A DNA stretch of 64,000 nt from Streptomonospora litoralis (lineage in GTDB: Bacteria > Actinomycetota > Actinomycetes > Streptosporangiales > Streptosporangiaceae): positions 5,017,101-5,081,100 of the forward strand of contig NZ_CP036455.1 in the NCBI RefSeq assembly GCF_004323735.1. The letters are read 5' to 3'. This document shows, piece after piece, positions 25,313 through 43,361 of this stretch. Position 1 is the first letter of the stretch, and every line of letters starts with the position of its first letter. The translations under genes and the position numbers were made by a program. Below the pieces are notes generated by a model. That model was given only the letters and a program-made list of their open reading frames with translations. It ran no database searches and was not told the origin of the DNA.

Positions 25313-26521
25313 ATGTCGCTGGGTCAGATCTTCGCGCAACGTGTGCGGTGGCATCGCACTCGGCAGGGTAAATCCCAGGCAGTGGTAGCAGGACTCGCGG
25401 GCCTTAACGCCGAGTACCTCGGACAGATCGAGCGTGGATACCGGATCCCGTCATTGGATGTCGTCGAGGCTATCGCCGGAGCTCTCGGGGTTTCCGTGCC
25501 CGAACTGGTAGCCGAGAGCAGTGAGCGCCCCTCACCCGCTCCCGACGTTCTATTGGCGTCTGAACTGCACCGCGCTCTTCTCCTCCAGCAGGAAGCCTCC
25601 TCTGGCCGCAGTACCGACGAGCTACAGGAAGCGGTCGAACACGCCTGGCGCCTCTGGCAAGGGGCCGCGGACCGCTACAGCCGTCTGGCCGCTGTGGTCC
25701 CCGACCTGATCGGTGACGTCGCTACAATCAACGCCCCCGGAGCAACCGATCCCCTCCTTGAGCACCGAGTGGCAACCGACGCCTATGCTCTCTTGCGGAC
25801 TGTGGCTCGGCGCATCGGGCGCCCCGACCTGGCGTTGGTCGCGGCCGATCGTGAGCGTCGGGCCGCCGAACAGACAGAGGACGATGTCCGCCTGGCACGG
25901 GCGAATTGGAACCTCGCACACGCGTTGCTGGGGCAGCAGGAGCCCCAAACAGCCGAGGAAATCGCCTTAGCGGCCATCGCCGATATCAAAGGGCATGGAA
26001 CCCGCGAAGCCGCAGCGATCAGCGGCGCGCTGTGGCTGGCCGCCGCTGTGGCCGCCGCGCGTAGTCAACGAAGATTCGCGGCCATCGAGCGCATCAGGGA
26101 CCATGCTCGCCCCCTCGCGGAAAAAACCGGGGAAACCAATGTGGGGCGAACCGCCTTCGGACCGACCAACGTCGCCCTACACATGGTCAGTGTCGAACTC
26201 GAGGACGGCCACACCGCCGACGCCCTGGCTATCGCCGACGAAATCGATCCGGCTCCGCTCCAATCACGTGAGCGCCGCACAACTCTCGCGCTCGACCTCG
26301 CCCGCAGTCACGCAATGCGGTCCGAGCCAGGGGCTGCGCTGCTGCATCTGCTAGAAGCCGAGCAGAGCAGCGCTGAGGAACTTCGCTACAACCCGACGGC
26401 GCACGACACCGTGCGCCGGGTATTCCAGCGCGCCCGTCCGTCGCTTCGCAAGCAGCTCACCGCTTTCGCCCAGCGTGTCGGCATCGAAGACGAACTCGCC
26501 GCCGGTCACACGCTTTCCTAG
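25313..26521 (+). CDS. XRE-family regulator with TPR-like helical domain
   Basis: This 402-aa regulator has an N-terminal HTH (FAQRVRWHRTRQGKSQAVVAGLAGLNAEYLGQIERGYRIPSLDVVEAIAGALGV). A long all-helical region with repeated Ala/Leu/Arg helices, typical of TPR-containing actinobacterial regulators, follows. ATG 25313 follows an AGGAGG box by about 7 nt. It sits at the start of the plus-strand run that contains the lanthipeptide genes and may be a cluster-associated regulator; a role in that cluster is inference from position. Its codon use is less GC-biased than that of the P450 genes downstream. Confidence 0.85.
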   Translation: MSLGQIFAQRVRWHRTRQGKSQAVVAGLAGLNAEYLGQIERGYRIPSLDVVEAIAGALGVSVPELVAESSERPSPAPDVLLASELHRALLLQQEASSGRSTDELQEAVEHAWRLWQGAADRYSRLAAVVPDLIGDVATINAPGATDPLLEHRVATDAYALLRTVARRIGRPDLALVAADRERRAAEQTEDDVRLARANWNLAHALLGQQEPQTAEEIALAAIADIKGHGTREAAAISGALWLAAAVAAARSQRRFAAIERIRDHARPLAEKTGETNVGRTAFGPTNVALHMVSVELEDGHTADALAIADEIDPAPLQSRERRTTLALDLARSHAMRSEPGAALLHLLEAEQSSAEELRYNPTAHDTVRRVFQRARPSLRKQLTAFAQRVGIEDELAAGHTLS

Positions 26522-26618
26522 CTCTGCGCTAGGACGTCGCAACGCTAGTAGGCCTGGTTACACCCTTCCGTAGGTTCGTCCTCGCTGCATGATCCACCAC
26601 GCTGCGAGGAGACAAGGA

Positions 26619-26834
26619 ATGGCCGACTGCCGAACGCCTTTGGCGACATGCGCGTCCGCAGTGGCGCGGGCGCACCGATGCCACCGGCCAGTGTCCGTCG
26701 ATGGACACAGCATATTCGGGCAAGGACCGGACTTCGCTATCCGCAAGACCTTCGGGACAACACCGGCCGTTCGCCAATACGTCGTGTGGTCGGGCAGCGA
26801 ATGCGCACCGGCCAATGAGGCAGGTGCGTCGTGA
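26619..26834 (+). CDS. Small hypothetical protein, coupled to the next gene
   Basis: A 71-aa frame starts at ATG 26619, which has GAGGAGA about 7 nt upstream, and ends in a 4-nt GTGA overlap with the next gene. The protein has three Cys, several Arg and His, and the segment DGHSIFGQGPDFAIRK. No family is recognised. The ribosome site and the coupling are the main evidence that it is real. Confidence 0.45.
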   Translation: MADCRTPLATCASAVARAHRCHRPVSVDGHSIFGQGPDFAIRKTFGTTPAVRQYVVWSGSECAPANEAGAS

Positions 26835-27418
26835 GCAGAGCTGACGACAATGCCGCTGGCGCCCTGGCCCGTCTGCGCTGGCATTATCCCCACTGGGACA
26901 TCCGGTATTACGCCGCCACCTCGCTGCCCGAACGCGGCGTGTTCGTGGCCAGCATCGCACCGGCTCCCGAGTTCCTTAGAGGAGTTCTAACCGCAGCGGC
27001 TGCCAGCGAGGAAGGGCTCCTTCGGCAGTTGGAGATCCATGACCCCGTGGCGAGCCGCATCGCAGAGGCCGCCGGCACGGGCACGCGGGATCTCCCTGCA
27101 GGCGAAGAAGCTGTAGCTCGGCTTCAGGGGCAGCATCCCCGGTGGCGGATCCGCTACGAGACCGGCCCCGGCGGCGGCCGGTTCGTGGCCACACGGCCAC
27201 GAACGGCTGAGCAGGCCGCGCTCGGGCTGCTGGAGACCGTGACCGCCGCCAACGCCCTGGAGCTGGCGCACCGCCTGGCCTACCAGGACGCCCTGACCGC
27301 CGGCGCGGAAGCGATCGCCCAGGACATCGATATCGATCCCGAAGACCTGATCGAGGGCGCCGCCGACCTGGTCGCCGGCTGCGAGGAACTTCTGCGCCGT
27401 GCCGCCGGAAGCTTCTGA
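26831..27418 (+). CDS. Hypothetical protein with an internal duplication
   Basis: This 195-aa protein contains two similar segments of about 35 residues. The first has ALARLRWHYPHWDIRYY...VFVASIAP (residues about 11-44) and the second AVARLQGQHPRWRIRYETG...RFVATRP (about 94-124). Each looks like a helix followed by two strands. Each segment is followed by helices; the C-terminal 65 residues are helical and acidic. No known domain is recognised. It starts with GTG in a 4-nt overlap with the upstream small gene and lies 77 nt before the P450 pair, so it may belong to the same transcript. Confidence 0.7.
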   Translation: MSRADDNAAGALARLRWHYPHWDIRYYAATSLPERGVFVASIAPAPEFLRGVLTAAAASEEGLLRQLEIHDPVASRIAEAAGTGTRDLPAGEEAVARLQGQHPRWRIRYETGPGGGRFVATRPRTAEQAALGLLETVTAANALELAHRLAYQDALTAGAEAIAQDIDIDPEDLIEGAADLVAGCEELLRRAAGSF

Positions 27419-27495
27419 CGCAACGCCACCGGTGCACTCGGACCGGACCGGGTTCCCGCTCGACCGCCCCTCCCTCGTGTGAAAGCGACACCGCC

Positions 27496-28833
27496 ATGCC
27501 ACCGGTCCCCGAACCCCCACCGCCGCTGCTGCGGCTGGATGATCCCGTCCTGGACCTGCCCACCGCCCTCGACCGCCTCGACGAGGAGCACTTCCAGCGC
27601 GGGCTGGTGCCCGTCGAGCTGGAGAAGGGCGTGCCCGCCTGGCTCATGATCAGCCTGCCCGTGCTGCACCGGGTCCTCAAAGACGAGCACTACTTCGCGC
27701 GAGATCCCCGCGCTTGGCGCGACCTGTGGAACGGCACCATCCCCGACACCAGCCCGCTGCAGGCGCTGTATCCGCCTCGCAGGAACGCCTTGTCGGTCGA
27801 CGGCGGCGAGCACCAGCGGCTGCGTACGGCGCTGACCGGAGCCTTGCAGGAGGTGTCCCTGGCGCTGCTGCCCGCCCGCATCCGCGAGATCGCCGACGTG
27901 GTCATCGACGGGTTCTGCACCCGGGGCCGGGCCGACGTGGTCTCCGAATACGCCTCCGTGCTGCCGCTGCTGGTGCTGTGCCGCTTGTTCGGCATGGACC
28001 AGCCCGCGGGGCTGCGGGTGGGTATGGCCATGCAGCGCCTCTGGGACGGCGAGGCCGACGCCGGCCACGCCCACCACCAGCTCCAAGACCTGCTGCTGGA
28101 GCACGCCGCCTACCGCCGCGCCCACCCGGGCCGCGACATCACCAGCGGGATGGTCGCCCGCGGGCTGGACGATGAGGAGATCCGCGACCAGCTCGCGCTG
28201 ATCATGGCCGCCGCACACGACCCCATCGCCCACGCACTCGCCAACACGCTGGCCGACCTGTTGCAGACGTCGCGGATGCACATGGTCGGCTCCACCTGGC
28301 TGATCAGCGAGACCCTCAACCACGGGGTGTGGCGCCACCCGCCCTTGGAGACCCTGGTGGGCCGCTTCCCCACCGCCGACGGGCTCGAGGTGGGCGGCTA
28401 CCGGCTGGCGCGCGGCGACTGCCTGGTCATGGGCTTCGGCGCCGCCCAGCGGCACCAGCTGCGCACCGCCCCGCCCGAACCCTCCAACCGGGCCTATCCG
28501 GTGTTCGGCATGGGCCCGCACGGGTGCCCGCAGCTGGGCCGCGACATCGCCCTGGCCATCGCCCAGACCGGGGTGGAGCGCCTCCAGCAGCGCCTGCCCG
28601 ACCTGCGCCTGAGCGAGACCGATACTCCGCGGCGCGCCTCGACGGTCATCGCCGGACGCCGCGCTCTTCCCGTCACGTTCACCCCCGCCCGCCCGATCAC
28701 ACCCGCCGCACCACACCAGGAGGAGAAGTGGAATCCCACTCGCCCCGCACCCGCATCCGTCTCGAACTCGAGGACCCCGCCACCAACACGCAGCGTCTTC
28801 GCGAGGCTGGCCCGGTGGCTGCGGTCGAGCTAG
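27496..28833 (+). CDS. Cytochrome P450 lacking the K-helix EXXR motif (CYP157-like)
   Basis: This 445-aa P450 has a heme-binding loop FGMGPHGCPQLGRDIA (Cys near residue 344), so it should bind heme. The K-helix region reads LNHGVWRHPP (about 274-283), where the normal Glu and Arg of EXXR are replaced. The I-helix has AAAHDPIAHAL instead of AGxDTT. N-terminal features (ELEKGVPAWL, HYFARDPRAWRDLW, NALSVDGGEHQRLR) resemble the CYP157 family of Streptomyces, which is known to lack EXXR and to be encoded beside CYP154. The last 45 or so codons overlap the next P450 gene by 106 nt in another frame; the homologous part ends near ALPVTFTPARP, so the tail may be a frameshift product or read-through. 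Activity is uncertain. Confidence 0.85.
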   Translation: MPPVPEPPPPLLRLDDPVLDLPTALDRLDEEHFQRGLVPVELEKGVPAWLMISLPVLHRVLKDEHYFARDPRAWRDLWNGTIPDTSPLQALYPPRRNALSVDGGEHQRLRTALTGALQEVSLALLPARIREIADVVIDGFCTRGRADVVSEYASVLPLLVLCRLFGMDQPAGLRVGMAMQRLWDGEADAGHAHHQLQDLLLEHAAYRRAHPGRDITSGMVARGLDDEEIRDQLALIMAAAHDPIAHALANTLADLLQTSRMHMVGSTWLISETLNHGVWRHPPLETLVGRFPTADGLEVGGYRLARGDCLVMGFGAAQRHQLRTAPPEPSNRAYPVFGMGPHGCPQLGRDIALAIAQTGVERLQQRLPDLRLSETDTPRRASTVIAGRRALPVTFTPARPITPAAPHQEEKWNPTRPAPASVSNSRTPPPTRSVFARLARWLRSS

Positions 28834-29936: not shown

Positions 29937-30070
29937 TCGGCGACTTCTCTCGGTGGCCGCATCCTCCGGCGACCAGCACGAGCGCAGGCAAGACGCCAAC
30001 ACCGCCTTCGGCCCCACCGGCGTGCTCTCCGAAGCTGCAAACCACCTCTGTGTATGACAGGTGCATCACC

Positions 30071-30901
30071 ATGTCCGACCACACACCCGCTCCCCCGACC
30101 GGCGTCGACCCTTACACCCCCAGCGCCGCCCGACTCTATGATTTTTATTTGGGCGGCAAGGACAACTACGCCGCCGACCGCGACGCCGGCACCGAGCTCC
30201 TGGAACGCATCCCCGAGCTGCACAGCACCGCCCACGCCAACCGGTACTTCCTGCGCCGCGTCGTGCGCCACCTGGCCGCCGAAGCCGGGATTCGCCAGTT
30301 CCTGGACATCGGCTCCGGGCTGCCCACCCAGGACAACGTCCACCAGGTCGCCCAGCGCCACGCCCCCGGAGCCCGCGTCGTCTACGTCGACAACGACCCC
30401 ATCGTGCTCGCCCACGCCCACGCGCTCCTGGCCGAGGACCCCGCCACCACCGCGGTCGCCGAAGCCGACCTACGTGACCCCGCCGGAATCCTCGCCCACC
30501 CCCGGATCCGGGGGATGATCGACTTCACCCGGCCGGTCGCCGTGCTGATGATCGCCGTCCTGCACTTCCTCACCGACGACGACCGCCCCTACGAGGTGGT
30601 GGCCGCGCTGCGCGACCGACTGTGCCCGGGCTCCTACATCGCCGTCTCCCACCTGGAAAACGAGACCAGCCCCCAGCGGGCGGCATTCATGGAACAGGTC
30701 TACGCCCGCAGCTCCGCCACCTTGAAAGGGCGCAGCCACGCCGAGATCCGCCGGTTCTTCACCGGTCTGGAACTCGTGGAGCCCGGTGTGGTGCCCATCT
30801 CCCAGTGGCGCCGCGACCCGGACGAGCCCTATTGGCCGCCCGAGCAGGCCTGGGGCGACGGCGGCCTCGGCCGCCTTACCCAACGGCCGCCCGCGGGCTG
30901 A
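30071..30901 (+). CDS. SAM-dependent methyltransferase, DUF574 type (Methyltransf_19)
   Basis: This 276-aa protein has the family's opening AARLYDFYLGGKDNYAADRDAG, a SAM-binding motif FLDIGSGLPTQDN, VVYVDNDPIVLAHA with the acidic residue after strand 2, and DFTRPVAVLMIAVLHFL. DUF574 methyltransferases are abundant in actinomycetes, often near regulators and P450 genes; their substrates are mostly unknown. ATG 30071 begins the conserved region about 135 nt after the P450 stop. A role in modifying the lanthipeptide is possible by position only. Confidence 0.9.
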   Translation: MSDHTPAPPTGVDPYTPSAARLYDFYLGGKDNYAADRDAGTELLERIPELHSTAHANRYFLRRVVRHLAAEAGIRQFLDIGSGLPTQDNVHQVAQRHAPGARVVYVDNDPIVLAHAHALLAEDPATTAVAEADLRDPAGILAHPRIRGMIDFTRPVAVLMIAVLHFLTDDDRPYEVVAALRDRLCPGSYIAVSHLENETSPQRAAFMEQVYARSSATLKGRSHAEIRRFFTGLELVEPGVVPISQWRRDPDEPYWPPEQAWGDGGLGRLTQRPPAG

Positions 30902-31166
30902 GGGGGACACGGCTCTGTCTCGCACCGGCCGAGGGGTGGCCCGCTTCCCGCGCGGGCTTACCGAGGCGTCGGGCTCCCTGGCCGAGCCGACACACAACAC
31001 CAACCACTACGGGCCCACCACCCGGGGCAGGGACTGGGTGGACCAGGCGCCACCCCGCCCACCCTGCACCGGCGCACCCCGCGCCGGCGCACCGGCCCGC
31101 CCCGGAGCCCGGCCCTCGGTCCTCCTTGTGTCCGCCGCTTCCCGCACCGACGTGTAACGGAGTTGT

Positions 31167-33089
31167 ATGAACCGGCGCCGCCCCGCCCCGGCCACCCCCG
31201 CAGGACTGCCCGAACTGGCCACCAGCCGATTCCACCCCTGGTTCGGCGACCTGCAGCGCCTATCGCTGTGGCGCATGCTCACCCGCCTGCCCGCCCTCAT
31301 CGCCACCGCCCTGCGCTGGAGCTGGAAAGCCAGCCCCCGCGACACCCTGCTCACCGTCGGCCTCAACATCGCCGCCGGCGCCCTCTCCGCGATCGTGCTC
31401 ACCGCCGTGGTCGGCATCCTGCAAGGCCTGTTCGCCCAGGGCCCCACCCCCGAGCGGCTGCAGGCCGCCCTGCCCTCGCTCCTGCTGGCGGGCGCGGCCA
31501 TGGTGACCCGGGCCGCACTGCGCTCCGCAGCGATCTGGGCCCAAGGCCGACTCACCCCCATGGTCGAACGGGCCGTGGAGGTCGAACTCGTCTCACTCAC
31601 CACCGCCACCCGCCTGGAGGCCTTCGACGACTCCGACTGGTGCGACCAGATCCACCGCGCCCGCACCCTGGGCGTCTACGAAGCCGGACGCATCACCGGC
31701 TACGCCGCCGACATCGCCACCGAACTCATCAGCCTGCTGGCCGTGGCCACCGTCGTCACCGTCCTGCACCCCGTGCTGCTGCCGCTGCTGGCGCTGACCG
31801 TGGCCCCGGTCGGCTGGGCCGCGATCCGCTCGGCCCGGATGCGCTACGCCCGCATGCGGGCGCTGAGCACCTCCAACCGGCTGCTGTACATGTACACCCA
31901 CGCCATGACCGAGCGCGAGGCCGCCGCCGAGCTGCGCGCCTACGCGATGCGCCCCATGCTGCTGGCCGAATTCGCCCGCATCTCCGACCATGTGCGCGAC
32001 GCCCTCCTGGCCGTGGTTGGCCGTCAGACCACCACCCGCGCTGTGGGCGACGTGCTGGGCGGCATCGCCACCCTGGCGACCTACGCCGCCCTGGTCGCGC
32101 TGCTGCTGGCCGGGCTGATGCCGCTGGCGGTGGCCGGGGCCGCCTACCTCGCCCTGGGCCAGGGCAAAGCCGCCCTGGATCGGCTCATGAACGCCGTCAA
32201 CTCCTGCTACGAATCCGGCCTCTACCTGTCGGACCTGCTGGAGGCCTTCGACCAGGCCCGCCGCCGCACCCCGCCCGCCGCCGGCACCACCTCCCCCGGA
32301 CCACTCGAAGAGCTGCGGGTGCAGGGTGTGGACTTCGCCTACCCCGCCGCCGAGGCCAACGCGCTCACCGGAGTCAGCATCACCGTCGAACGCGGCCGGA
32401 TCGTGGCCCTGGTCGGCGAGAACGGGTCCGGCAAATCCACCCTGGCCACCCTCATCTCCGGGCTGTATGTGCCCGATGCCGGCACCATCACCTGGAACGG
32501 CACCGACATCGCCGACCTGGACCCCGACGAGCTGCACGCCCGGATCGGGCTGATCCGCCAGCAGTACCACCAGTGGCCCTTCTCCGCCGAACGCAACATC
32601 ACCATGGCCGCCCCCGGGACCGCCGACCCCGACCGGCTGGGCCGGGCGCTGCGGCTCAGCGGCGCCGACCAGGTGGTCGCCGACCTCGCCCACGGGCTGG
32701 ACACGCCGCTGGATACCCGGTTCAAAGACGGCGCGGACCTCTCCGGCGGGCAGCGCCAGCGCATCGCCGCCGCCCGCGGCCTCTACCCCCAGGCCGATCT
32801 GGTCATCGCCGACGAGCCCACCGCCGCCCTGGACGCCCGCGCCGAGGAGCGGCTGTTCTCCACATTCCAGGCCGCCGCCGACGGGGCCGCGGTGCTGCTG
32901 ATCACCCACCGGCTGGCCAGCACCCGCAGCGCCGACTGGATCTACGTCCTCGACCACGGCCACGTCGTCGAACAGGGCACCCACACCGACCTGATCACCC
33001 ACGGCGGGCTCTACGCCGAGCTCTACGGCATCCAAGCCGCCGCCTACAACGGAGCCACCCCGCACCGGCACACCGAAGAATTTCTATGA
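31167..33089 (+). CDS. ABC exporter (fused permease-ATPase), probable lanthipeptide transporter
   Basis: This 640-aa half transporter has about six membrane helices in residues 60-330 and a C-terminal ATPase: Walker A GENGSGKST, Q loop RQQYHQW, signature LSGGQRQR, Walker B DLVIADEP and the switch His in LITHRLAS. There is no N-terminal C39 peptidase domain, so leader removal must be done by another protease. It is one of the standard parts of actinobacterial class I lanthipeptide loci and probably exports the modified peptide. ATG 31167 lies 7-8 nt after GGAG. The last codons form an ATGA overlap with a short unassigned frame. Confidence 0.9.
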   Translation: MNRRRPAPATPAGLPELATSRFHPWFGDLQRLSLWRMLTRLPALIATALRWSWKASPRDTLLTVGLNIAAGALSAIVLTAVVGILQGLFAQGPTPERLQAALPSLLLAGAAMVTRAALRSAAIWAQGRLTPMVERAVEVELVSLTTATRLEAFDDSDWCDQIHRARTLGVYEAGRITGYAADIATELISLLAVATVVTVLHPVLLPLLALTVAPVGWAAIRSARMRYARMRALSTSNRLLYMYTHAMTEREAAAELRAYAMRPMLLAEFARISDHVRDALLAVVGRQTTTRAVGDVLGGIATLATYAALVALLLAGLMPLAVAGAAYLALGQGKAALDRLMNAVNSCYESGLYLSDLLEAFDQARRRTPPAAGTTSPGPLEELRVQGVDFAYPAAEANALTGVSITVERGRIVALVGENGSGKSTLATLISGLYVPDAGTITWNGTDIADLDPDELHARIGLIRQQYHQWPFSAERNITMAAPGTADPDRLGRALRLSGADQVVADLAHGLDTPLDTRFKDGADLSGGQRQRIAAARGLYPQADLVIADEPTAALDARAEERLFSTFQAAADGAAVLLITHRLASTRSADWIYVLDHGHVVEQGTHTDLITHGGLYAELYGIQAAAYNGATPHRHTEEFL

Positions 33090-33281
33090 CCAGCACCGTC
33101 GCGGACGTGGCCGACCCGTCTGCTCCGTGTTCTGGAAGAGGAATCCACCAATGCGATATCCACCCGGCAGTCACACGCTCCCCGGGCACGCCTCCCCTGC
33201 CGCCGACCCTGCAGGCGGTCGGCGGGACGGTTCCCTGGCCCCGCAGATGGCGATCCGGACCGTCGGATGCAGGGAGTGAGT

Positions 33282-33701
33282 GTGGAAGCCAACCACCGGC
33301 TTCGTGGAGCGCGAGAGGCGTGTACATCGCCGGCGGCTCCGGACCGGCCGATGAGCCGGGCCGAACTGGCCGAAGCGGTCAACGACTACCTATGGCGCAC
33401 CGAGGGCAAAGCCTACGCGCTGGATGGCCACACCATCGCCCGCTACGAACGCGGCAGAGTGCGCTGGCCCAACGCGAACTATCGGGCCGGACTCCGCGCG
33501 ATCTTGCGCGTAGCCGACGACGCGGGGCTGGGTTTCCACCCCACACCGCGTGGCAGCAGCGCGCCGCCCGCGCCAGATCGCGAACGCTCCGAGGCGATGG
33601 GAACCGAGGAGTTTTCGCCTTCGAGGAGCAGCTACCCGCGTTCCGGTTTCGGCGGCTCCGCCAAGACGGCGCCAGCGGCTCCGATCCCGGCAGCACACTG
33701 A
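33282..33701 (+). CDS. Short HTH (XRE-type) protein, possible cluster regulator
   Basis: The 139-aa frame shows RLRGAREACTSPAAPDRPMSRAELAEAVNDYLW, then HTIARYERGRVRWPNANYRAGLRAILRVADDAGLGF. This is the N-terminal HTH of a large actinobacterial family whose members usually continue for another 250-350 residues of TPR-like helices. Here the conserved part stops near residue 92 and is followed by low-complexity sequence, so the gene is either a natural short form or a truncated regulator. GTG 33282 follows AGGGAG by 5 nt. It lies 340 nt before the precursor gene, where an inverted repeat could be its operator. Confidence 0.65.
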   Translation: MEANHRLRGAREACTSPAAPDRPMSRAELAEAVNDYLWRTEGKAYALDGHTIARYERGRVRWPNANYRAGLRAILRVADDAGLGFHPTPRGSSAPPAPDRERSEAMGTEEFSPSRSSYPRSGFGGSAKTAPAAPIPAAH

Positions 33702-33925
33702 CGGCATCAGGGCCATCCGCCTGATGGTCGAAGCATCCAGTCGCCCAGGTCAACGCCGGGGAACGCGTCTGGCCGTCAGCGGTCTACCGCGGTCGGTCGG
33801 AGCCGTGGCGGTGGCCTCGGCCGTGGGGCGCCGTGGCCGCTCCAGATTGCCCTTCGGTGCACCGCAGAATGCCCTGCCGTACCCCGCACGCTCCTGGAAA
33901 AGTGACCGTGTGGCACCCACGGAGC

Positions 33926-33956
33926 GCACTGTCACGAGCACCGTTCGTGCCAGTGC
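33926..33956. promoter_or_regulatory. Inverted repeat upstream of the lanthipeptide precursor gene
   Basis: The arms GCACTGTCACGA (33926-33937) and TCGTGCCAGTGC (33945-33956) are complementary at 11 of 12 positions around a 7-nt spacer. The repeat is 86 nt before the precursor ATG within a 340-nt gene-free stretch. It could be a regulator operator or an RNA hairpin in the leader. No clear -35/-10 pair could be assigned. Confidence 0.5.
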
Positions 33957-34041
33957 GCGTGGAGCCATACAGCAGAGAAACAACCCCGCGGGTCACCACC
34001 TTCGTCCCGTGGTTCCGCAACAGATGTTGGGAGTGCAGTTG

Positions 34042-34227
34042 ATGAGCACGTCGACCATTGATCAGCCCGCCGAGCTGCAGCAGATCACCGATCCCGGCAA
34101 CGAGACGGATCCGTTCGGCCTCGACATCACCTTCATCGAGAACACGCCGGCGACCGAGACGGAACTGCTGTGCAGCACCGGCGACAACTGCGGGAGCTCG
34201 TGCCCGAGCGCCTGCACCACGTCGTAG
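34042..34227 (+). CDS. FxLD-family class I lanthipeptide precursor
   Basis: The 61-aa precursor has an acidic leader with the FxLD motif as FGLDITFIE (Phe25-Glu33) in place of the FNLD box of nisin-type leaders. The C-terminal core has four Cys (44, 50, 54, 58) and Ser/Thr at 45, 46, 52, 53, 56, 59, 60 and 61 plus Thr 35, 38 and 40. Up to four (methyl)lanthionine rings are possible. Asp48 (in TGDN) is the only Asp after the leader motif and is the likely target of the FxLD-type methyltransferase. ATG 34042 has GGGAG about 8 nt upstream; ATG 34024 in frame is possible. A strong hairpin follows, then lanB. The leader cleavage site is not evident. Confidence 0.93.
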   Translation: MSTSTIDQPAELQQITDPGNETDPFGLDITFIENTPATETELLCSTGDNCGSSCPSACTTS

Positions 34228-34243
34228 GACCAGGCAGACGGTG

Positions 34244-34274
34244 CGGGTCACGTCGGAGCCGTCCGACTGACCCG
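34244..34274 (+). terminator. Hairpin between precursor and lanB (probable partial terminator)
   Basis: A 13-bp stem (CGGGTCA-GTCGGA pairing with TCCGAC-TGACCCG, one bulged C at 34251) closes on a GCCG loop. It lies 16 nt after the precursor stop and 32 nt before the lanB start. It is not followed by a T tract. Such hairpins in lanthipeptide operons let many precursor transcripts end early or be protected at the 3' end, so that the precursor exceeds the enzymes. Confidence 0.75.
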
Positions 34275-34305
34275 TCCTGTTCGCACGGAGAACGGAGCGA
34301 GGGTG

Positions 34306-36342
34306 ATGACGCGCTCACGGCGCAGCCTGTACCGGGGGGCCGGTGAGGGAATGCTGCGCGCCGCAGCGAACCTCACCGGACCCGACATGCCTCCATGGCC
34401 AGAACCCACGGCGGCCGTGGAACGCTGGCGTTCGTGGTTGGCAGCCGTGTGGGTCGATGACGCCTTTCGTCACGCCGTGTCCACTGCCAGCCCGGACTTG
34501 GCACGCCGGGTCCAGTCCGTCCTCGACGGACGCTCGCCGAAGCCGCGTCGGGTACGGCGGGCGGCACTGGCTACAGCCCGCTACGCCATCAGGTACACGC
34601 AGCGATCCACGCCCTTCGGCTTGTTCGCAGGCGTCGCACCGGTCACTTTCGACGACGCGGCCGAGGCACACGTCGGGCGTCAGCACCTGGCTGCGGGCAG
34701 GCCGGACCCCGTCGCGCTGGAGAAGATGATCAGCGCCTGGGAGACCGACGCCGCGCGCATGGCCGAGGTCGACGTATGCGTCAACAACCTGGCACGCCGG
34801 CGAGGCGACCGCATCTACATTCCCGGCGAAGGGCCGTCGGAGGTCTCACTCGCGCTGACGCCTGCGGTCGAACTGGTGCTGGAGGCGGCGCGGTCACCGA
34901 TCCGGTTTTCGGCCCTGGCGGACAAACTTGCCGCCGAGTTCACCGACAAAGCCGAGGCCCACTGGGCCGGCATGCTCACGCAGCTGTTGCGGGTACGGCT
35001 GCTTCGGTCGGCCCTGCGGGCGCCCGCCACCGTCGTCGATCCGGCTGACCACTTGCCCTCGGCTCTGCGGGAGGAGGCGGAAGACAGCCCGGCGGCGCCG
35101 GACCTGCGGCTGGACGCGACGGTGCAGCTTCCGACGGCGGTCGTGACGGAGGCAGAGACCGCCGCGACCGTCCTCACCCGCCTCGCTGCGTATCCGACGG
35201 GTACCCCGGCATGGCAGCGCTACGCCGAAAATTTCGCCGATCGCTACGGTGAGGGCGCCGAGGTGCCGCTGGAGCTCGTGACAGACCCAGAGGAAGGGCT
35301 GGGCTTGCCCGAGGGGTTCGGCGAGATCTCGCAGGCGCCTCGGCCGATGACCTTGCGAGATCGGCTGCTTCTGGAGCTGGCCACCACTGCGGCTGTGGAG
35401 GGCCGCCGAGAGGTGGTCCTGTCCGAGCCGGTGATCGAACGGTTAGAGGCTGCCGCCGGCACGCGGGCGCTCACTCCGCCCCATCTTGAACTGTGCGCCC
35501 AGGTCCAGGCCGACTCGATGCGTGCCGTGGACCGAGGCAACTTTCGCCTGCGGGTTTCCACCGTCTCCCGCGCGGTCGGCTCGATGACGGGCCGGTTCTG
35601 GCACCTGTTCTCCCACACCGGTTCGGGATGTGCGAGCCTGCCCGCGGTCGAGCCCGGCGCGGAATCGGCTCAGCTGTCCTTCCATTCCGCACGCACCTCA
35701 GGGGACCTGCTCACGCGGGCCCCGCAGGTGCTGCCCCGGTTGGTCAGCGTCGGAGAGTTCCGGTACCCCACACCCGGAGTACTGTTTCCGTCCGACCTGG
35801 CCGTGGGGCTGCGCGAGGGCCGCCTGTACCTCGCCCAAGCCGCCACCGGCACGCGGCTGGAGCTGCTCGCTCCTACGGCGATCAACTTCCAGTGGAACAA
35901 CTACACCCCCGCTCTGGTCCGGTTCGTTGCCGAGATCAGCCGGGCCGGGGTACCACAGGTGACGTGGTTCGACTGGGGAGCCGCATGGACGCTGCCCTTC
36001 ACGCCCGCGCTGCACTACCGGCGATCCGTCCTGGTCCCCGCGCGATGGAAGCTGCACGCTCGCGATCTGCCCGGCCGCGGCGCGACACCGCGGCAATGGG
36101 CCGACGGGCTCCATGAGTGGATGCGCCGGTTCCGCGTTCCCGACCGCGTGGTCCTGGTAGAAGACGATCAACACCTTCCTCTCGACCTGCGGCACGACCT
36201 GCACCGGGATCTGTTGCGCAACCATCTCGGCGCGAGCCGGACCGGCGTCGCCGTCGTGCAGGAGGCGCCGCCGCCCGATGCCGACGGATGGCTGGGCGGA
36301 CGCGCCAACAGCGTCGTCATCCCCTTGGAGGCGCGTCCATGA
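34306..36342 (+). CDS. Class I lanthipeptide dehydratase, LanB N-terminal (glutamylation) part
   Basis: At 678 aa this is a short LanB: it matches the lantibiotic dehydratase N-terminal domain and lacks the C-terminal elimination domain, which is found instead at the start of the methyltransferase gene downstream. Visible family segments are SLYRGAGEGMLRAA, RYAIRYTQRSTPFGLFAGV (the conserved TPFG region), FRLRVSTVSRAVGSMTGRF, LSFHSARTSGDLLTRAPQVLP and LFPSDLAVGLREGRLYL. LanB glutamylates Ser/Thr of the core using glutamyl-tRNA(Glu). ATG 34306 has GGAG 8 nt upstream; GTG 34303 directly before it is also possible. It overlaps lanC by 4 nt. Confidence 0.93.
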   Translation: MTRSRRSLYRGAGEGMLRAAANLTGPDMPPWPEPTAAVERWRSWLAAVWVDDAFRHAVSTASPDLARRVQSVLDGRSPKPRRVRRAALATARYAIRYTQRSTPFGLFAGVAPVTFDDAAEAHVGRQHLAAGRPDPVALEKMISAWETDAARMAEVDVCVNNLARRRGDRIYIPGEGPSEVSLALTPAVELVLEAARSPIRFSALADKLAAEFTDKAEAHWAGMLTQLLRVRLLRSALRAPATVVDPADHLPSALREEAEDSPAAPDLRLDATVQLPTAVVTEAETAATVLTRLAAYPTGTPAWQRYAENFADRYGEGAEVPLELVTDPEEGLGLPEGFGEISQAPRPMTLRDRLLLELATTAAVEGRREVVLSEPVIERLEAAAGTRALTPPHLELCAQVQADSMRAVDRGNFRLRVSTVSRAVGSMTGRFWHLFSHTGSGCASLPAVEPGAESAQLSFHSARTSGDLLTRAPQVLPRLVSVGEFRYPTPGVLFPSDLAVGLREGRLYLAQAATGTRLELLAPTAINFQWNNYTPALVRFVAEISRAGVPQVTWFDWGAAWTLPFTPALHYRRSVLVPARWKLHARDLPGRGATPRQWADGLHEWMRRFRVPDRVVLVEDDQHLPLDLRHDLHRDLLRNHLGASRTGVAVVQEAPPPDADGWLGGRANSVVIPLEARP

Positions 36343-37409
36343 CCGCGCCGACGCTACCCAGAACCCAGGATCTGTCCGACGGCGCGCTGGGCACCGCACT
36401 CCTGCACGTCGAACGCGGGGATACCGCATCGGCCCGCAGCACCCTTGCGCAGGCGGTTGCGGACGGGATCAGCACCGGAGGCAACGCGTCGCTGTTCCAC
36501 GGGGCCCCGGCGCTGGAATTCGTCCTGCTCCGGGCCGGAATCACGCGACGGGATGTGTGCGCCGCGGTCGACCGCGTTGTGGCCGCTCGCCTCACCGCAG
36601 CGCGTCGGCGACAGGAATCGGGGGTGCTGCCGCATGTGGCGGAATTCGACCTCATTCGGGGGCTGACCGGTCTTGGTGCGCTGCTGTTGGCCCGAAGTGA
36701 GGCCGCGCCGTTGTTGAAGGACGTCCTGGTCTACCTGGTCTCGCTGTCGCGACCGGTCCGCACCGAGGAACGTGAGATGCCCGGCTGGTGGTCGGATGTG
36801 GGCCCTTCCGGTGAGGAGCTCGACGGCGGCCACGGCAACAACGGTGTCGCCCACGGCATTGCCGGGCCCCTGGCTCTGCTGTCACTGGCCGCCCGGCACG
36901 GCGTCCAGGTACCAGACCAGCGCGAGGCCATCGCGGTATTCGACCACTGGCTCGACACCCACGGCTGCAACTACTGGACGAGTGACGATCAATTGCGGGC
37001 GCCCGGTCCGCCCACGCCGGTGCCGACGCGTCCGTCCTGGTGCTACGGACGCGCCGGCACCGCCCGCGCCCAGCACCTGGCCGCGATCGCCTTGGGCGAT
37101 CCGTCCCGCCGACGCGCGGCCGAGAACCAGGTCATACAGACCCTGACGGATGCGGTCTGGCTCGACCGCATCACCGACGCCACTCTGTGCCACGGCTGGG
37201 CCGGGCTACTGACCGTCGTCCGCGCCGTCGCCGAAGACAGCCCAGCCGCGGCGCGGTTCACCCCGCTGATCGCGGACCTGCACCGGCGTCTCGCCGCCGA
37301 CCGGGAACGGCTGCCCGAACGCGGACTCATGGAAGGCCGGGTGGGGGCGCAGCTGCCCGTGGAGGCCACCGACGCCACCGGCTGGGCGCGTCTCCTGCTG
37401 ATCACCTGA
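36339..37409 (+). CDS. Lanthionine synthetase C (cyclase)
   Basis: This 356-aa LanC-family zinc enzyme adds Cys thiols to dehydroalanine/dehydrobutyrine to form lanthionine rings. The catalytic and zinc motifs are clear: GHGNNGVAHGIAG (His172 as probable acid/base), SWCYGRAG (zinc Cys235) and LCHGWAG (zinc Cys284 and His285). The length is near the lower end for LanC proteins. The start overlaps the lanB stop in ATGA, so the two are translationally coupled. It works with LanB and the FxLD methyltransferase on the peptide encoded at 34042. Confidence 0.95.
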   Translation: MTAPTLPRTQDLSDGALGTALLHVERGDTASARSTLAQAVADGISTGGNASLFHGAPALEFVLLRAGITRRDVCAAVDRVVAARLTAARRRQESGVLPHVAEFDLIRGLTGLGALLLARSEAAPLLKDVLVYLVSLSRPVRTEEREMPGWWSDVGPSGEELDGGHGNNGVAHGIAGPLALLSLAARHGVQVPDQREAIAVFDHWLDTHGCNYWTSDDQLRAPGPPTPVPTRPSWCYGRAGTARAQHLAAIALGDPSRRRAAENQVIQTLTDAVWLDRITDATLCHGWAGLLTVVRAVAEDSPAAARFTPLIADLHRRLAADRERLPERGLMEGRVGAQLPVEATDATGWARLLLIT

Positions 37410-37461
37410 ACCGGACGGGCATCCGCATGCCGCCGCACCAACTAAGGAGCTTGCCACGACC

Positions 37462-39513
37462 ATGAAAGACGAGGACGAACGTCTTCCCGGAGCCGCTGAG
37501 GAAGGCTGGTGGAGCGCTAGCGTGTGGTTCGCGGGTGAGGCTGGAGTGAGCTCGCACGCCGCTCAGGCTCTGTGCTCGACGCTGGCCGACCAGCGCTTCC
37601 ACTTTGTGCGCAAGGACGGCGGGCTGAGACTGCGCACGCAGCACTGCGCAGCCCATCACCTGGATGCCCTTGTCGCCGACCAGGTGGCCACGAGGTGGGT
37701 GGGCACCGTCTACGAGCCGGAGACCGAAGCCTTCGGCGGTAGCGCGGGCATGGCCATCGCGCATGCCCTGTTCTGCGCCGACAGTCCCTCCGCCTTGATG
37801 GAGACCGGCGCCCCGGGCGCCAGGGAGCGCTGCGTCCTGTTGCTGTCGGTCCTGCTCCGACACGCCGGCCTGGATCCGTTCGAGGTCGGCGACGTCTGGA
37901 CGAAGCTCGGCGCGTTGCGGCCACCGCTCACCCCGCCCGCCGGCTCTGCGCGTGACAGTGCGGTGGCGGCCATGCGGCGCCTGATGAACGCCGACGCCCA
38001 GCATCGGCCGAACGCCGAGGCCGACTGGGCCGAGCGCGTCACCGCGTTCACCGACGCCGGCCGCCGGCTGAGGTCCCTGGCCGACCAAGGGCGGCTCACG
38101 CGGGGCCTGCGGGCGGTGCTGGCCCACCATGCCGTCTTCGCCTTCAACCGCGCCGGAGTTCCCATCGACCAGCAGGCCGCAACGGCCTGGCTGGGCAGCC
38201 ACGTCGCCTTCGCCGATCGACAGGATGCTGACGTGTCCACCCATCTGTCCGCTCATTCGACAACCGATGCAACCCGAATGGAGACCATGACTTCCGCCAC
38301 CGACCCCGCCGACCTGCGCGACGAACTCGTGAACCGCCTCGTCGGCAGCGGCCACCTCCGCACCCCCGAGGCCATCGCCGCCTTCCGGGAGGTCCAGCGC
38401 GACCGGTTCCTGCCCGGCGTCGACCAGCACGCCGCCTACGCCGAGGACGCCGTATCCATCAAGCACGATGACACCGGCGACATGATCTCCTGCATCTCCG
38501 CCCCCTCCATCGTCGCCACCCAACTGGAGCAGCTGGGCGCCCGGCCCGGACACAGGGTGCTGGAAGCCGGAGCCGCAACTGGTTACAACGCCGCCCTCCT
38601 CGGCCGCCTCGTGGCGCCCGGGGGCCATGTGTGGACGGTCGACGTCGACCAGGACCTCGTCGAGGGCGCCCGCAAGAACCTCGCCGAAGCCGGCGCCTCC
38701 AATGTCACCGCCGTCCTGGGCGACGGCGCGGCCGGTTGGCCGGACCACGCCCCCTACGACCGCATCCAGTTCACCGTCGGCGCCGGTGACGTGCCGGCCC
38801 GGATCCTCGACCAGCTCGCCCCGCACGGACGCCTGGTCCTGCCCATGCGCATCCGCGGCAGCATCTCCCGCAGCTTCGCCTTCGAACGTGACGGCGACGC
38901 CTGGAAAACCGTCTCGTGCGAGATGGCGACGTTCATCCCCCTGCGCAAGGGCGTGTGCGACGACGTCTACACGCGGGTTCCCATGGCCGGTGAGGGCAAC
39001 GTGCTCCTGGAGACCTTCAGCGAGCAGGACGTGGACCGCGAAGCGATCCGCACCGTCCTCGACCAGCAGCAGGCCAAGGTCTACTCCGGCGTGAAGTTCC
39101 GCCAGGGCGACCCCTGGGAGTGGCTCTACCTGTACCTGGCGGCTGTGCTGCCCAACGGCCTGTCCCGCATGCCGGGTGCCCGCCCCGGCTTCACCCCGCA
39201 CTTCGGCTGGGGCTCGATGGCCGCCCTCGACGGCGGCAGCCTGGCCTACCTGACGGTGCGCGAGGGCGAGGACGCGCAGGGCCGGTTCTGGGAGATCGGC
39301 GTCATCGGCCATGGCCCGTGCGCCGACGAGCTCGCCGAGCAGGTCGCGGGCGAGATCGTCGCGTGGGATGAGGGCTGGGGCAACACCGCGCCCAGCCCCA
39401 CCTTCCGCATGGCCCTCGGCGAGGCGCGCGACCGGCTGAAGACCAACGATCCGCGCTTCGTCATCGACAAGCCTCACAGCCGCCTGGTCATCGACTGGCC
39501 GCGCCGCAGCTGA
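37462..39513 (+). CDS. FxLD-system methyltransferase fused to LanB-type elimination domain
   Basis: In this 683-aa two-part enzyme, residues about 15-250 match the SpaB C-terminal/thiopeptide-type domain that eliminates glutamate from glutamylated Ser/Thr (segments STLADQRFHFVRKDGGLRLR, CADSPSALMETG, RERCVLLLSVLLRHAGL). Residues about 275-683 form a protein-L-isoaspartate methyltransferase-like domain of the FxLD system, with YAEDAVSIKHDD, SAM motif VLEAGAATGYNAALLG near 366 and a conserved end GRFWEIGVIGHGP. Relatives methylate an Asp in the peptide, giving an aspartimide and then isoaspartate. It thus supplies the half missing from the short LanB. ATG 37462 has AAGGAG about 15 nt upstream, a longer spacing than usual. 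Confidence 0.9.
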   Translation: MKDEDERLPGAAEEGWWSASVWFAGEAGVSSHAAQALCSTLADQRFHFVRKDGGLRLRTQHCAAHHLDALVADQVATRWVGTVYEPETEAFGGSAGMAIAHALFCADSPSALMETGAPGARERCVLLLSVLLRHAGLDPFEVGDVWTKLGALRPPLTPPAGSARDSAVAAMRRLMNADAQHRPNAEADWAERVTAFTDAGRRLRSLADQGRLTRGLRAVLAHHAVFAFNRAGVPIDQQAATAWLGSHVAFADRQDADVSTHLSAHSTTDATRMETMTSATDPADLRDELVNRLVGSGHLRTPEAIAAFREVQRDRFLPGVDQHAAYAEDAVSIKHDDTGDMISCISAPSIVATQLEQLGARPGHRVLEAGAATGYNAALLGRLVAPGGHVWTVDVDQDLVEGARKNLAEAGASNVTAVLGDGAAGWPDHAPYDRIQFTVGAGDVPARILDQLAPHGRLVLPMRIRGSISRSFAFERDGDAWKTVSCEMATFIPLRKGVCDDVYTRVPMAGEGNVLLETFSEQDVDREAIRTVLDQQQAKVYSGVKFRQGDPWEWLYLYLAAVLPNGLSRMPGARPGFTPHFGWGSMAALDGGSLAYLTVREGEDAQGRFWEIGVIGHGPCADELAEQVAGEIVAWDEGWGNTAPSPTFRMALGEARDRLKTNDPRFVIDKPHSRLVIDWPRRS

Positions 39514-39517
39514 GCCC

Positions 39518-40618
39518 ATGATCCCCCCGATCGCCACCCGCATTCCGCTGGTGCGTCGCCCCAAGGCTCCCGCGCTGCCGTTAGAGCAACGCATCGCCCA
39601 CGTCACGGGGCTGGCCGATGAGTCCGCTGGCGCGAGCCACCACGACCTCGTGGCCCGCGCCAGCGGAGTCCTCAACTACGCCGCGCTGATCGCCTCCGAC
39701 GCCGCGCTACCCGACCTGGCCGCCGACCTCTGCTGGAAACAGCACCGCGCCTTCGCCGACGCCGGCCGTCTCACCGGAGAGATCGCGGTCATGGCACTCA
39801 TGCCGTTGATCAACCTCTCCCGGCTGCTGACGCGCGAAGGCGACGGAGAAGGCGCCTACGACGTACTCAAGCAGCTCTACCGCACCGCCCACGCGCGCAG
39901 CTCGACCCACATCCGCGGCCACGACGTCGACCTATCGGCCCTCACCGCCACGGAATCGGACCACCACGATGTCTGCAAGGCACTGTGGGTCGCACTCCTC
40001 GTCGACGGCGCCCGGGCCCTGGCGCGCATCGGATGCTGGACCCAGGCCGCCGAAGCCATGACCGCCCATCGCGGCGTCGGGCACCGCCTTCTCGACGGCC
40101 GCCAGATCATGATCATGTCGCTGATGGAACGGGGCCTTTACCAGCAAGCGCGCGATGCGATCGAGGCCACCGCGCCCACCGAAGAATGGGAGAACGCCAT
40201 CGCGGCCCTGCTGCAAGTGGCCTGCCGTCCTGCAACCGCGCCGGCCTCCGCGCAAGAACGGGACGAGGCACTGCTCGGGGCGGGAGCGGTGCTCACCTCC
40301 CCTGACCCTGCGACTGCGCTGTTCCAGACCCGCGTCGGCCTGGCCGCTCTTGAACTAACCCACCACCACACCGGCCCCCACACCGCCGGATTACACGACC
40401 CCATCGTCGACGCGGCCCGTCTCGACGCCTACGCCGCCCGCGACACCCTCACCCACCCCCTCGTCGGCGCCCACTTGGATGAGGAGCAGAGAAGCCACCT
40501 CGAATCCATAGTCGCCGAATCCGGGCTCGGCGCCGGCAGGCTTTCACCAACTCACATGGAGACCCTGACCGCCGCGTCCGAACGCGCCGAAGCCGCTCTC
40601 CGCAGACTCCTGGCGTGA
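39518..40618 (+). CDS. Helical-repeat protein of unknown function at the end of the lanthipeptide operon
   Basis: This 366-aa protein starts 4 nt after the methyltransferase stop, so it is almost certainly co-transcribed with it. It is Ala/Leu/Arg-rich and all-helical in appearance, with helix pairs such as DLAADLCWKQHRAFADAG and MSLMERGLYQQARDAIEAT that look TPR-like. There is no HTH, signal peptide or catalytic motif. It might be a scaffold or regulator for the pathway. I do not recognise a named family. Confidence 0.75.
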   Translation: MIPPIATRIPLVRRPKAPALPLEQRIAHVTGLADESAGASHHDLVARASGVLNYAALIASDAALPDLAADLCWKQHRAFADAGRLTGEIAVMALMPLINLSRLLTREGDGEGAYDVLKQLYRTAHARSSTHIRGHDVDLSALTATESDHHDVCKALWVALLVDGARALARIGCWTQAAEAMTAHRGVGHRLLDGRQIMIMSLMERGLYQQARDAIEATAPTEEWENAIAALLQVACRPATAPASAQERDEALLGAGAVLTSPDPATALFQTRVGLAALELTHHHTGPHTAGLHDPIVDAARLDAYAARDTLTHPLVGAHLDEEQRSHLESIVAESGLGAGRLSPTHMETLTAASERAEAALRRLLA

Positions 40619-41128
40619 GGGGAGTTCGTGCTCCCGACGGCACCTCAGAGGAGGACGGCGCCCCAGCGCCATCAGCCTTTGACCACCGGGGCCTGCGCCC
40701 CCGGTATCGACGCGCTGCTCACCGACTCTGGAGAAAGGTTCGGCGGCCACGACGATCCCGGCCACGGGCAGCAGACATTGCTGTGACCGCACGACGCTGA
40801 GAACGGGGCAAGGTGTGACCACGAGTCTCCCGTCCGAGGCGAACGGGACTCATGAACCGTGGCTACGGCCACACCCGGGGAGGCCGCATCACAGACGCCG
40901 GCGCCGTTTCCAGCAACCAATCCACTGTTGCGCCCCGGCTCTGGCGCAGGCTGTATTGCCTGTCGCCGACCCGGACGGGCTCGGTGTGCTGATCGTAGCC
41001 TGCTGCAGCAACAGAGGAGGCACAGTGGAACGCCATCGGCGCGGCCTACAGACGACTTTCCGCTGTACAGCGGGAGAACAGCTAGAGGCAGCGTCCCCGA
41101 GCGAACCGATCACAACCAAGGAACCCGC
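40619..41128. other. Intergenic region, no gene supported
   Basis: About 510 nt lie between the helical-repeat gene and the APH-fold kinase gene. Long frames run through it, but their translations are low-complexity and without family features. It probably holds the end of the lanthipeptide transcript and a promoter for the kinase. An AAGGA box at the 3' end serves the kinase start. Confidence 0.45.
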
Positions 41129-42205
41129 ATGCCCAACTCCGCCGGCCTTTCCGCTACCGTGGCCCGCGTTCTGGACGAACGCTACGGGCTGGCCCCTGCG
41201 CAGCTGTCTCCGGTGCGCGGCGGCCAACACACCGTCAACCTGCGCGCCGATAGTGGCAAGCGCGCGATGTTCGTCAAAACGTACGAGGATTCCGCCGACC
41301 TGGCCACCGAACGCCGCGCGATCGCGCTCTCGGAGTTCGCCGGCGAAAACGGCGTCCCCGTCTCCCCCGTTATCGACAACCGAGAAGGCGATCCCATAGA
41401 CACCAGCTCACCGGTGGCGATGTCGGTATGGGAGTGGATGCCCGGCAGCGCGGCCCAGGAACTGAACCCTTCTATCGCCGAGCAGGCGGGTCGTGCGCTA
41501 GGTCATCTGCACCGCGCCACCGCTGACCTGACCGAAAGCCGTCGGCCCGCCGGCCCCGTGCAGGACGCATGGCGCGGTATTGACACCGACGGCATCTCCG
41601 CCACCATCGACCATCTGCTCGGCATCATCGAGGAACGGGTACACGCGGGGCAGGCCGGCCCTTTCGACACCCTCGCTGCCCGCACCCTGACGGAGCGGCG
41701 GGCGATGCTCCCCGCCCTTCCCTCCCTCGCCGCGGAACTTCCCGGGGATCTCACCGTCCAGGTCTTGCACGGCGACTACGCCCCCCGCAACCTGCTCTTC
41801 GACGACGAAGGACGACTCACAGCCGTCCTCGACTTCTCACCGCCAACCCCTGGACTCCTCGCTTATGACATCGGCCGCGCCGCGCTTTTCGCCACGACTC
41901 TCGCGCGCGGCGACTGGCTCGACTGCGCCAACGCCCTCCTCACCGCCTATCTCGACGTCAACCCGACCGTCACAGCTTCGGACCTGCAAGCTTGTTACCA
42001 CGTCCCCGTCATTCAACTTCTACGCAGTCTCTACGGCATCAAACAGCACTACCTCAGCCCCGGCATCGACCAGGCCGACCTCGACGACTTCTGGCACATG
42101 CGCCACCGCGCCGCCCAGACTCTGCTGGAGCATCGCGGATCAATCGAGGACATGCTCACCAAGCTGGCCCACCACCTCCCACCGACGAGGCCGTCGCGAT
42201 GCTGA
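41129..42205 (+). CDS. Phosphotransferase of the APH (aminoglycoside/choline kinase-like) fold
   Basis: This 358-aa protein has a protein-kinase-like N lobe with a Lys in RAMFVKTYEDS. The catalytic loop is VLHGDYAPRNLLF (HxDxxxxN), and the metal-binding segment is AVLDFSPPTPGLLAYDIG. APH-fold enzymes phosphorylate small molecules, from antibiotics to homoserine or thiamine. No resistance subfamily can be recognised. ATG 41129 has AAGGA 7 nt upstream. It lies 510 nt after the lanthipeptide genes on the same strand; a second APH-fold gene lies beside the decayed FxLD locus at 45.6 kb, so a link with such loci is possible. Confidence 0.88.
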   Translation: MPNSAGLSATVARVLDERYGLAPAQLSPVRGGQHTVNLRADSGKRAMFVKTYEDSADLATERRAIALSEFAGENGVPVSPVIDNREGDPIDTSSPVAMSVWEWMPGSAAQELNPSIAEQAGRALGHLHRATADLTESRRPAGPVQDAWRGIDTDGISATIDHLLGIIEERVHAGQAGPFDTLAARTLTERRAMLPALPSLAAELPGDLTVQVLHGDYAPRNLLFDDEGRLTAVLDFSPPTPGLLAYDIGRAALFATTLARGDWLDCANALLTAYLDVNPTVTASDLQACYHVPVIQLLRSLYGIKQHYLSPGIDQADLDDFWHMRHRAAQTLLEHRGSIEDMLTKLAHHLPPTRPSRC

Positions 42206-43354: not shown

Positions 43355-43361
43355 GAGCACC

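Follow-up and report, generated by a model that had tools for sequence, protein, structure and literature searches.

Which genes around a predicted lanthipeptide precursor of Streptomonospora litoralis make up its biosynthetic unit, and where does glutamate elimination take place when the LanB next to that precursor ends after its glutamylation domain? We addressed these questions in a 64,000-nucleotide stretch of the 5.8 Mb genome (G000:C1:5017101-5081100, contig NZ_CP036455.1; hereafter the window), in which an earlier note, made from the letters alone, had proposed a complete FxLD-type class I lanthipeptide locus. The operon consists of five genes on the plus strand at window positions 34042-40618; all five open reading frames (ORFs) are intact and overlapping or close-set, the start of lanC lying inside the end of lanB (Table 1). 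The FxLD class I assignment was borne out, as the precursor at 34042, the LanB glutamylation domain, the LanC that follows it and the FxLD-system methyltransferase, a relative of PIMT, all matched their profiles. Judged from sequence, we consider it likely that these genes form a lanthimiditide operon with a split LanB, in which a syn-type lyase fused to the PIMT-like O-methyltransferase is the sole lyase, and that such operons form a clade of their own that descends from coi-like clusters.

In LanB enzymes of the NisB type, glutamylation of Ser/Thr and elimination of the glutamate are carried out by one protein. The LanB of the window had been described as short, and with 679 residues it is; what the description lacked is that it contains no elimination domain, which is found instead as the N-terminal part of the methyltransferase. 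The LanB sequence stops at the glutamylation domain, and in the split clade the tail beyond that domain is at most 3 residues long, compared with a median of 288 in other FxLD LanBs. In the product of 37462-39513, residues 39-247 match TIGR03891 (lantibiotic elimination domain, 105.6 bits), and residues 283-679 match TIGR04364 ("methyltransferase, FxLD system") with 419 bits for a cut-off of 320. This N-terminal part is the single elimination domain in the cluster, and since LanB has none, elimination encoded by the cluster would come only from the fused domain. Papers are cited here by PMC number. Syn-lyases are marked by a hydrophobic residue for NisB Arg826 and by Lys for Tyr (PMC9486935), and the K46A result agrees with this Lys as a syn-lyase residue (PMC9011353). 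We aligned 59 fused domains of the split clade, duplicates dropped, with 32 lyases from loci that have a full-length LanB. In the split-clade rows, 58 of 59 carry Lys51 and the remaining one has a gap there; the NisB R826 place is Ala in 56 and Thr in 3; and Arg56, Arg58 and Glu87 are kept in 59/59. The window fusion has the same signature, K51/A90. Because fused and stand-alone lyases of full-length-LanB loci show it as well (Lys 32/32, Ala 31/32, Val 1/32), the syn signature alone is no marker of the split clade. The cluster therefore shares with the coi-like type a domain with the syn-lyase signature fused to PIMT, while the full-length LanB with its own elimination domain is missing; it also has, by sequence, the separate glutamylation protein and the syn-type sole cluster lyase of a SapT-type split system.

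The extent of the unit was read from relatives. The LanB search covered 345 genomes of the order, and counts of relatives refer to the matches listed. In at least 22 relatives, LanB is 60-75% identical and has an open frame of some 550-880 residues; the other listed matches reach at most 47% and are mostly about 1000 residues long, apart from G146, with a degraded fragment at 56%, and G313, with a second piece at 64%. At these 22 loci the precursor was found 22 times, LanB 22, LanC 20, the lyase part 20, PIMT 20 (that of L050 being a different one, at 36%) and the fifth gene 19 times. For the genes that precede the operon in the window, the corresponding counts are 0 for the first cytochrome P450 (P450-A), 1 for the second (P450-B; 35% identity, opposite strand), 0 for the ATP-binding cassette (ABC) exporter and 2 for the DUF574 methyltransferase; contig ends truncate L050 and L071, and L055 and L068 have less than 1 kb upstream. 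The earlier note had proposed a comparison of gene order, in which relatives with lanB-lanC-methyltransferase but no P450s nearby would take the P450s out of the locus, and the 22 loci of the order are such relatives for P450-A. A scan of named genomes gave 68 further loci (Streptomyces, Nonomuraea, Actinomadura, Streptosporangium, Microbispora, Frankia, Saccharopolyspora, Streptoalloteichus and others). Of these 68, 59 have the full set of six features, occasionally in pieces, and without exception (59/59) the features lie on one strand in an unchanged order: precursor, LanB, LanC, lyase/PIMT fusion and a tetratricopeptide repeat (TPR)-like protein. Since this order is kept in every complete locus, the unit is 34042-40618, and the fifth gene (39518-40618) is a regular member, left unnamed in the proposed locus of 25313-42205. 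With few changes the operon recurs in many soil actinomycetes, which belong to at least five families by the labels of the LanB tree. Nine named-set loci fall outside the 59 (L090, L101, L103, L105, L110, L145, L146, L151 and L156), most of them at a contig end; L145 lacks the precursor and the start of LanB. Scanning 33000-42400 for promoters and terminators gave no signal beyond that of shuffled sequence, and no member of family NF033400 was found in the S. litoralis genome.

In order to place the split LanB among its relatives, a tree of 60 LanB glutamylation domains was rooted at the midpoint; "coi-like" is our own label, taken from gene order. The 20 split rows form one clade (100/100), which is sister to two full-length coi-like rows (100/99) and lies inside the coi-like group (96/98); L003, placed beforehand in that group, falls elsewhere. 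As the split clade is nested inside full-length coi-like LanBs, it probably arose by one loss of the LanB elimination domain, the anti-lyase, from a coi-like ancestor. We also grouped 65 loci, of which 51 have a long LanB tail (18 with a fused lyase, 26 with a stand-alone one and 7 with neither) and 14 were not placed. The fifth-gene family occurs in 17/18, 11/26 and 0/7 of these full-length classes, respectively, a distribution by which the fifth gene tracks the syn-lyase. For its predicted structure, Foldseek returned a best E of 0.024 (NlpI) and none at or below 0.001, VIA-align gave Z values up to 12.1 with generic TPR proteins, which is within the range warned of for helical repeats, and a sequence search of solved structures brought nothing useful. 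The matches are unspecific, and the model supports only the description "TPR-like" helical repeat.

The precursor has a leader with the motif DPFGLDI and a core, CSTGDNCGSSCPSACTTS, at residues 44-61. Sixty-six precursors could be compared, 65 from the named set (L145, L151 and L156 of the 68 gave none) and that of the window. They hold 11 distinct 15-residue cores with a mean pairwise identity of 93%, and the core of the window is also that of 15 other precursors. The ratio of nonsynonymous to synonymous polymorphism (pN/pS) is 0.14 in the core versus 0.46 in the conserved part of the leader. Control cores from full-length FxLD loci (35 of 45 loci gave a core) have a mean identity of 61% over 12 residues, compared with the 93% of the split clade. 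The search pattern required T.D.C, so that core positions 3, 5 and 7 owe some of their invariance to the search itself, and Asp48 is present in every precursor found, although the pattern demanded that Asp; S10, P12, S13 and A14 were not required by the first pattern, and a stricter one dropped no row. A near-fixed core is not unique to the split clade, as one control subclade of five loci (L073-L077) is nearly fixed too; the cores of that subclade end in TPGSAGIANC and have few cysteines. A literature search for the core strings gave only an unrelated match. The spacing of the core equals that of CoiA1 in the published coi system (T46, C50, S53, C54, C58 and T60 for coi T43, C47, T50, C51, C55 and T57). 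At the place of coi Thr50, Ser is found in 66/66 split precursors versus 4/37 cores of full-length-LanB loci (4/19 among those fitting the whole spacing). Dehydration of Ser gives dehydroalanine (Dha), which has no E/Z forms, and for this reason the change from Thr50 to Ser would abolish the need for (Z)-dehydrobutyrine (Dhb) at one of the two positions where CoiC relies on it. These two positions are Thr43 and Thr50, and CoiC failed to close its rings when all three Thr were present as (E)-Dhb (PMC9486935).

From gene content and residue signatures we infer the chemical steps, the ring pattern and the stereochemistry as follows. LanB would add glutamate from Glu-tRNA to Ser/Thr of the core, and the fused lyase domain would eliminate it, LanB having lost its own elimination domain; acting as a syn-lyase, it would convert Thr to (E)-Dhb and Ser to Dha. 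LanC, in whose translation GVAHGIAG, WCYGRAG and LCHGWAG are present and presumably provide the Zn ligands, would close the rings T46-C50 (ring A), S53-C58 and T60-C54, a topology assigned after CoiA1 by spacing. The PIMT domain would methylate D48 inside ring A and so lead to aspartimide and isoaspartate (isoAsp), and the TPR-like protein would probably assist assembly. The assumed lyase outcome has a precedent in SapT, where a syn-type lyase gives (E)-Dhb and D-allo-L-methyllanthionine (MeLan) (PMC9890492, PMC9011353).

Each known system shares part of this arrangement. The coi cluster of Streptomyces coelicolor (CoiA/B/C/SA/H) likewise combines class I genes with a syn-lyase fused to PIMT (CoiSA) and has the same core spacing, but its LanB is full-length with an anti-lyase (PMC9011353, PMC9486935), whereas the operon lacks that domain and has Ser at the Thr50 place. 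CoiH, described as a gene of unknown function (PMC9486935), is a possible counterpart of the fifth gene, by description only. The olv system (OlvA/B/C/SA) is also class I, with an isoAsp installed by PIMT inside a MeLan ring (PMC13001092), as D48 lies inside ring A here; unlike the operon, it has a full-length LanB and no additional lyase domain according to PMC9486935. The spt system, which makes SapT, has a split LanB and a syn-type lyase (PMC9011353, PMC9890492), but its lyase SptBb is a separate protein, for which no PIMT fusion is described. The class I families I 1-4 of Walker et al. 2020 are actinobacterial, with a conserved Asp, a PF01135 methyltransferase and no characterised member as described there (PMC7268733), and the present clade may be one of them. 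Methyltransferase-fused syn-lyases are reported from clusters that also have a full-length dehydratase (PMC9486935, where the legend of Figure 7 can be read in more than one way), and two elimination domains are described for "almost all" members of a group of 426 (PMC9011353), a wording with room for the present clade. In these papers a split LanB with a fused sole lyase is not singled out; it may have been seen without discussion, and priority is uncertain.

Several observations weigh against the lanthimiditide reading or its boundary. The place of coi Thr43 is still Thr here (Thr46), and the coi result was obtained with (E)-Dhb; since ring A keeps this Thr while CoiC failed with (E)-Dhb, either the model misses something or the LanC of the split clade accepts (E)-Dhb. 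Within the split clade the Thr-to-Ser change counts as a single event, and 3/16 coi-like cores (L165-L167) share it with a full-length LanB. Core position 17 is not Thr in 4/66 precursors. Equivalence to R826 comes from a short NisB match (E of about 0.1) and from the papers, and the alignment covers fused and stand-alone lyases. Two relatives are incomplete without runs of N: L068 has the precursor and most of LanB only, and its contig runs on; L105 has precursor, LanB and LanC and no fusion despite 8 kb downstream. Decay or rearrangement is possible in both. As to the boundary, of the 59 named split loci whose contig reaches 7 kb or more upstream, 6, all Streptomyces, have a co-directional P450 pair there, and in the congener G026 three of four P450 cassettes are no more than about 13 kb away from other FxLD-type genes. 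Taken as proof of the model, the Thr-to-Ser change was rejected, since it stands for one clade and is present also in the four full-length-LanB cores counted above. As a tentative extension, which may well fail, the family would have lost the anti-lyase with the consequence that all Thr-derived rings, including the aspartimide ring A, are allo via (E)-Dhb, with an adapted LanC, a TPR-like partner and one near-fixed product across at least five families.

Table 1. Features of the operon and its surroundings, in window coordinates
Feature	Position	Strand	Evidence
FxLD lanthipeptide precursor, 61 aa	34042..34227	+	TIGR04363 56.6 bits, cut-off 30
Split LanB, glutamyl-tRNA-dependent glutamylation domain only, 679 aa	34303..36342	+	PF04738 (Lant_dehydr_N) 555.5 bits
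LanC cyclase	36339..37409	+	PF05147 (LANC_like) 95.8 bits
Fusion of predicted syn-type glutamyl lyase domain (aa ~1-265) and PIMT-like O-methyltransferase (aa ~276-683)	37462..39513	+	TIGR03891, TIGR04364, K51/A90
Fifth gene, TPR-like helical-repeat protein	39518..40618	+	last gene in 59 complete loci; AlphaFold pLDDT 89.7
Helix-turn-helix (HTH) regulator ORF, left edge of the proposed locus	25271-26521		Pfam profile match
P450-A, CYP157-like, no ExxR	27496..28833	+	Pfam p450 12.8 bits, cut-off 22.8; NCBIfam P450 models best 45.8 bits, below cut-off
P450-B, canonical P450	28728..29936	+	PF00067 72.4 bits
DUF574/Methyltransf_19 methyltransferase	30071..30901	+	PF04672 342.5 bits
ABC exporter	31167..33089	+	Pfam profile match
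HTH-like ORF upstream of precursor	33267..33701	+	HTH_31 15.1 bits, below cut-off
Variable region with operon, 18.9 kb; 3.57 kb in G026 instead	33081..51977	.	flanking DNA identity

Two P450s and a DUF574 methyltransferase had been reported upstream on the same strand, and all three are present; P450-A is weak, and its K-helix segment, ETLNHGVWRHPP, lacks ExxR. Of the ABC exporter and HTH protein also reported there, the exporter stands, while the HTH-like ORF stays below cut-off, has counterparts in 4/68 named-set loci (36-41% identity) and is rare in the clade; the ORF at the left edge is an HTH regulator as well. At 26831-27418 a 195-residue protein with no Pfam match, and with two similar halves by eye, accompanies the P450 pair in four G026 copies and in the copy of G075. 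For its missing ExxR we take P450-A to be CYP157-like: proteins of the CYP157 family are reported to have no EXXR and to be associated with conservons (PMC3599690), and P450s are described as CvnE-type accessory signalling proteins of conservons (PMC13343842). The pair of the window could accordingly be a regulatory neighbour, made of CvnE-type P450s that lost or left their conservon and tied to FxLD operons through expression, much as Streptomyces coelicolor has a lanthipeptide cluster repressed by the Cvn8 conservon next to it (PMC8510531). The six Streptomyces loci with a P450 pair are L091, L097, L106, L113, L141 and L149; neighbours were checked in four (L106, L141, L097 and L149), each of which has Robl_LC7; L141 adds DUF742, and both L141 and L097 have a gene for a PF03029 nucleotide-binding protein. 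By contrast, the ORFs scanned around the P450s, a subset of those in the window, yielded no Robl_LC7 or DUF742, the P450s of the window and the Streptomyces pairs are only 31-36% identical, and Cvn8 carries a GAF protein rather than a P450 (PMC8510531). This regulatory tie is a better guess than tailoring, yet it is unproven and itself a guess, which we hold to be conceivable but doubtful.

The four cassettes of G026 (L001, L002, L003 and L004) are 84-95% identical to P450-A and consist of the 195-residue protein, the ExxR-less P450, the canonical P450 and often DUF574. In L001 the cassette (74-93% protein identity) runs straight into a full-length-type FxLD LanB, in L003 it faces a LanB cluster, and in L004 there is only an FxLD-type methyltransferase. 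This neighbourhood of P450 and FxLD genes may be more than chance. At the position of the window itself, 18325-33080 shows 94-95% DNA identity to a G026 stretch without lan genes, synteny breaks within 10 bases of the ABC stop codon, and identity to G026 resumes at 51978 (96%). G075 has the same block (L006, L022) with no lan genes there and no match to this LanB genome-wide, and three congeners that lack LanB at this position have the ABC gene at 89-96% identity. The P450/DUF574/ABC block thus stands in its place in two congeners that have no lan genes there (L002, L006), and is independent of the operon.

The operon thus sits in a variable island, and the presence of the split-LanB clade in 1/6 genomes of the genus favours its arrival here over loss in the congeners. 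It might, in that case, have been acquired horizontally not long ago and be silent or decaying, and the two methyltransferase-family fragments beside it and the incomplete relatives L068 and L105 fit such a course; with its five ORFs intact and close-set or overlapping, and with a core shared by 15 other precursors, we think silence or decay unlikely. The FxLD methyltransferase-family fragments lie downstream in the island at 45674-45982 (minus strand) and 50294-50542 (plus strand), one of them 92% identical to the gene of the operon over 172 nt, hinting at earlier FxLD genes in the island. Its right half (46456-51891) contains an NYN/LOTUS protein, four NUDIX genes and a methyltransferase, and neither integrase nor transposase was found among the island ORFs scanned.

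The inclusion of the P450s, the DUF574 enzyme and the ABC exporter in the cluster, as first proposed, would make them tailoring and export parts of the pathway, with a product that is also oxidised or further methylated. The block adjoins the operon in the same direction, P450 pairs recur upstream in Streptomyces, the G026 cassettes lie beside FxLD-type genes, and an ABC gene follows the fifth gene in 20/61 named-set loci with at least 2.5 kb there, a place at which the window has none. Against this, P450-A was found in none of the 22 split loci of the order and lacks ExxR, and the block persists without lan genes in two congeners, synteny breaking at the ABC stop. We regard such a role as improbable; the linkage in 6/59 loci remains, the wider boundary is mostly not supported, and the P450s and the DUF574 enzyme are probably neighbours, not operon parts. 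As an essential part of the pathway, P450 tailoring is not supported by gene order in 22 + 68 relatives or by the same place in the two congeners.

It is likewise improbable that a separate full-length or thiopeptide lyase acts in trans and leaves ordinary anti-derived MeLan rings, with the fused domain as an accessory. In favour, the genome holds a second lyase gene (C1:1434097-1435038, the sole other TIGR03891 gene found, with Tyr at the Lys51 place by eye), and another full-length FxLD LanB is present in several relatives among the matches listed. Against it, the second lyase gene is part of a thiopeptide-type cluster at a distance of 3.6 Mb, no second match to this LanB was found in the genome, and the fused domain retains its key residues across the clade. 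The thiopeptide-type cluster (L158, G000:C1:1426000-1443999) comprises an 889-residue LanB-like ORF, the 313-residue lyase and a pyridine-synthase-like gene (weak TbtD/PbtD match), with a SagB-type match and an NshR/TsnR-family rRNA methyltransferase (477.6 bits, cut-off 425) in its vicinity.

Returning to the split operon with its fused syn-lyase, the corrected boundary keeps the P450s from being cloned as tailoring enzymes. The operon looks like a natural version of a published experiment, in which disabling elimination by CoiB left the fused syn-lyase to do all dehydrations, and CoiC failed to close the rings (PMC9486935). The split clade seems to repeat this intervention by evolution, and its operons persist in many genera. 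Their near-fixed core suggests one conserved target or role, and how their LanC copes with (E)-Dhb would show what determines ring stereochemistry in class I lanthipeptides.

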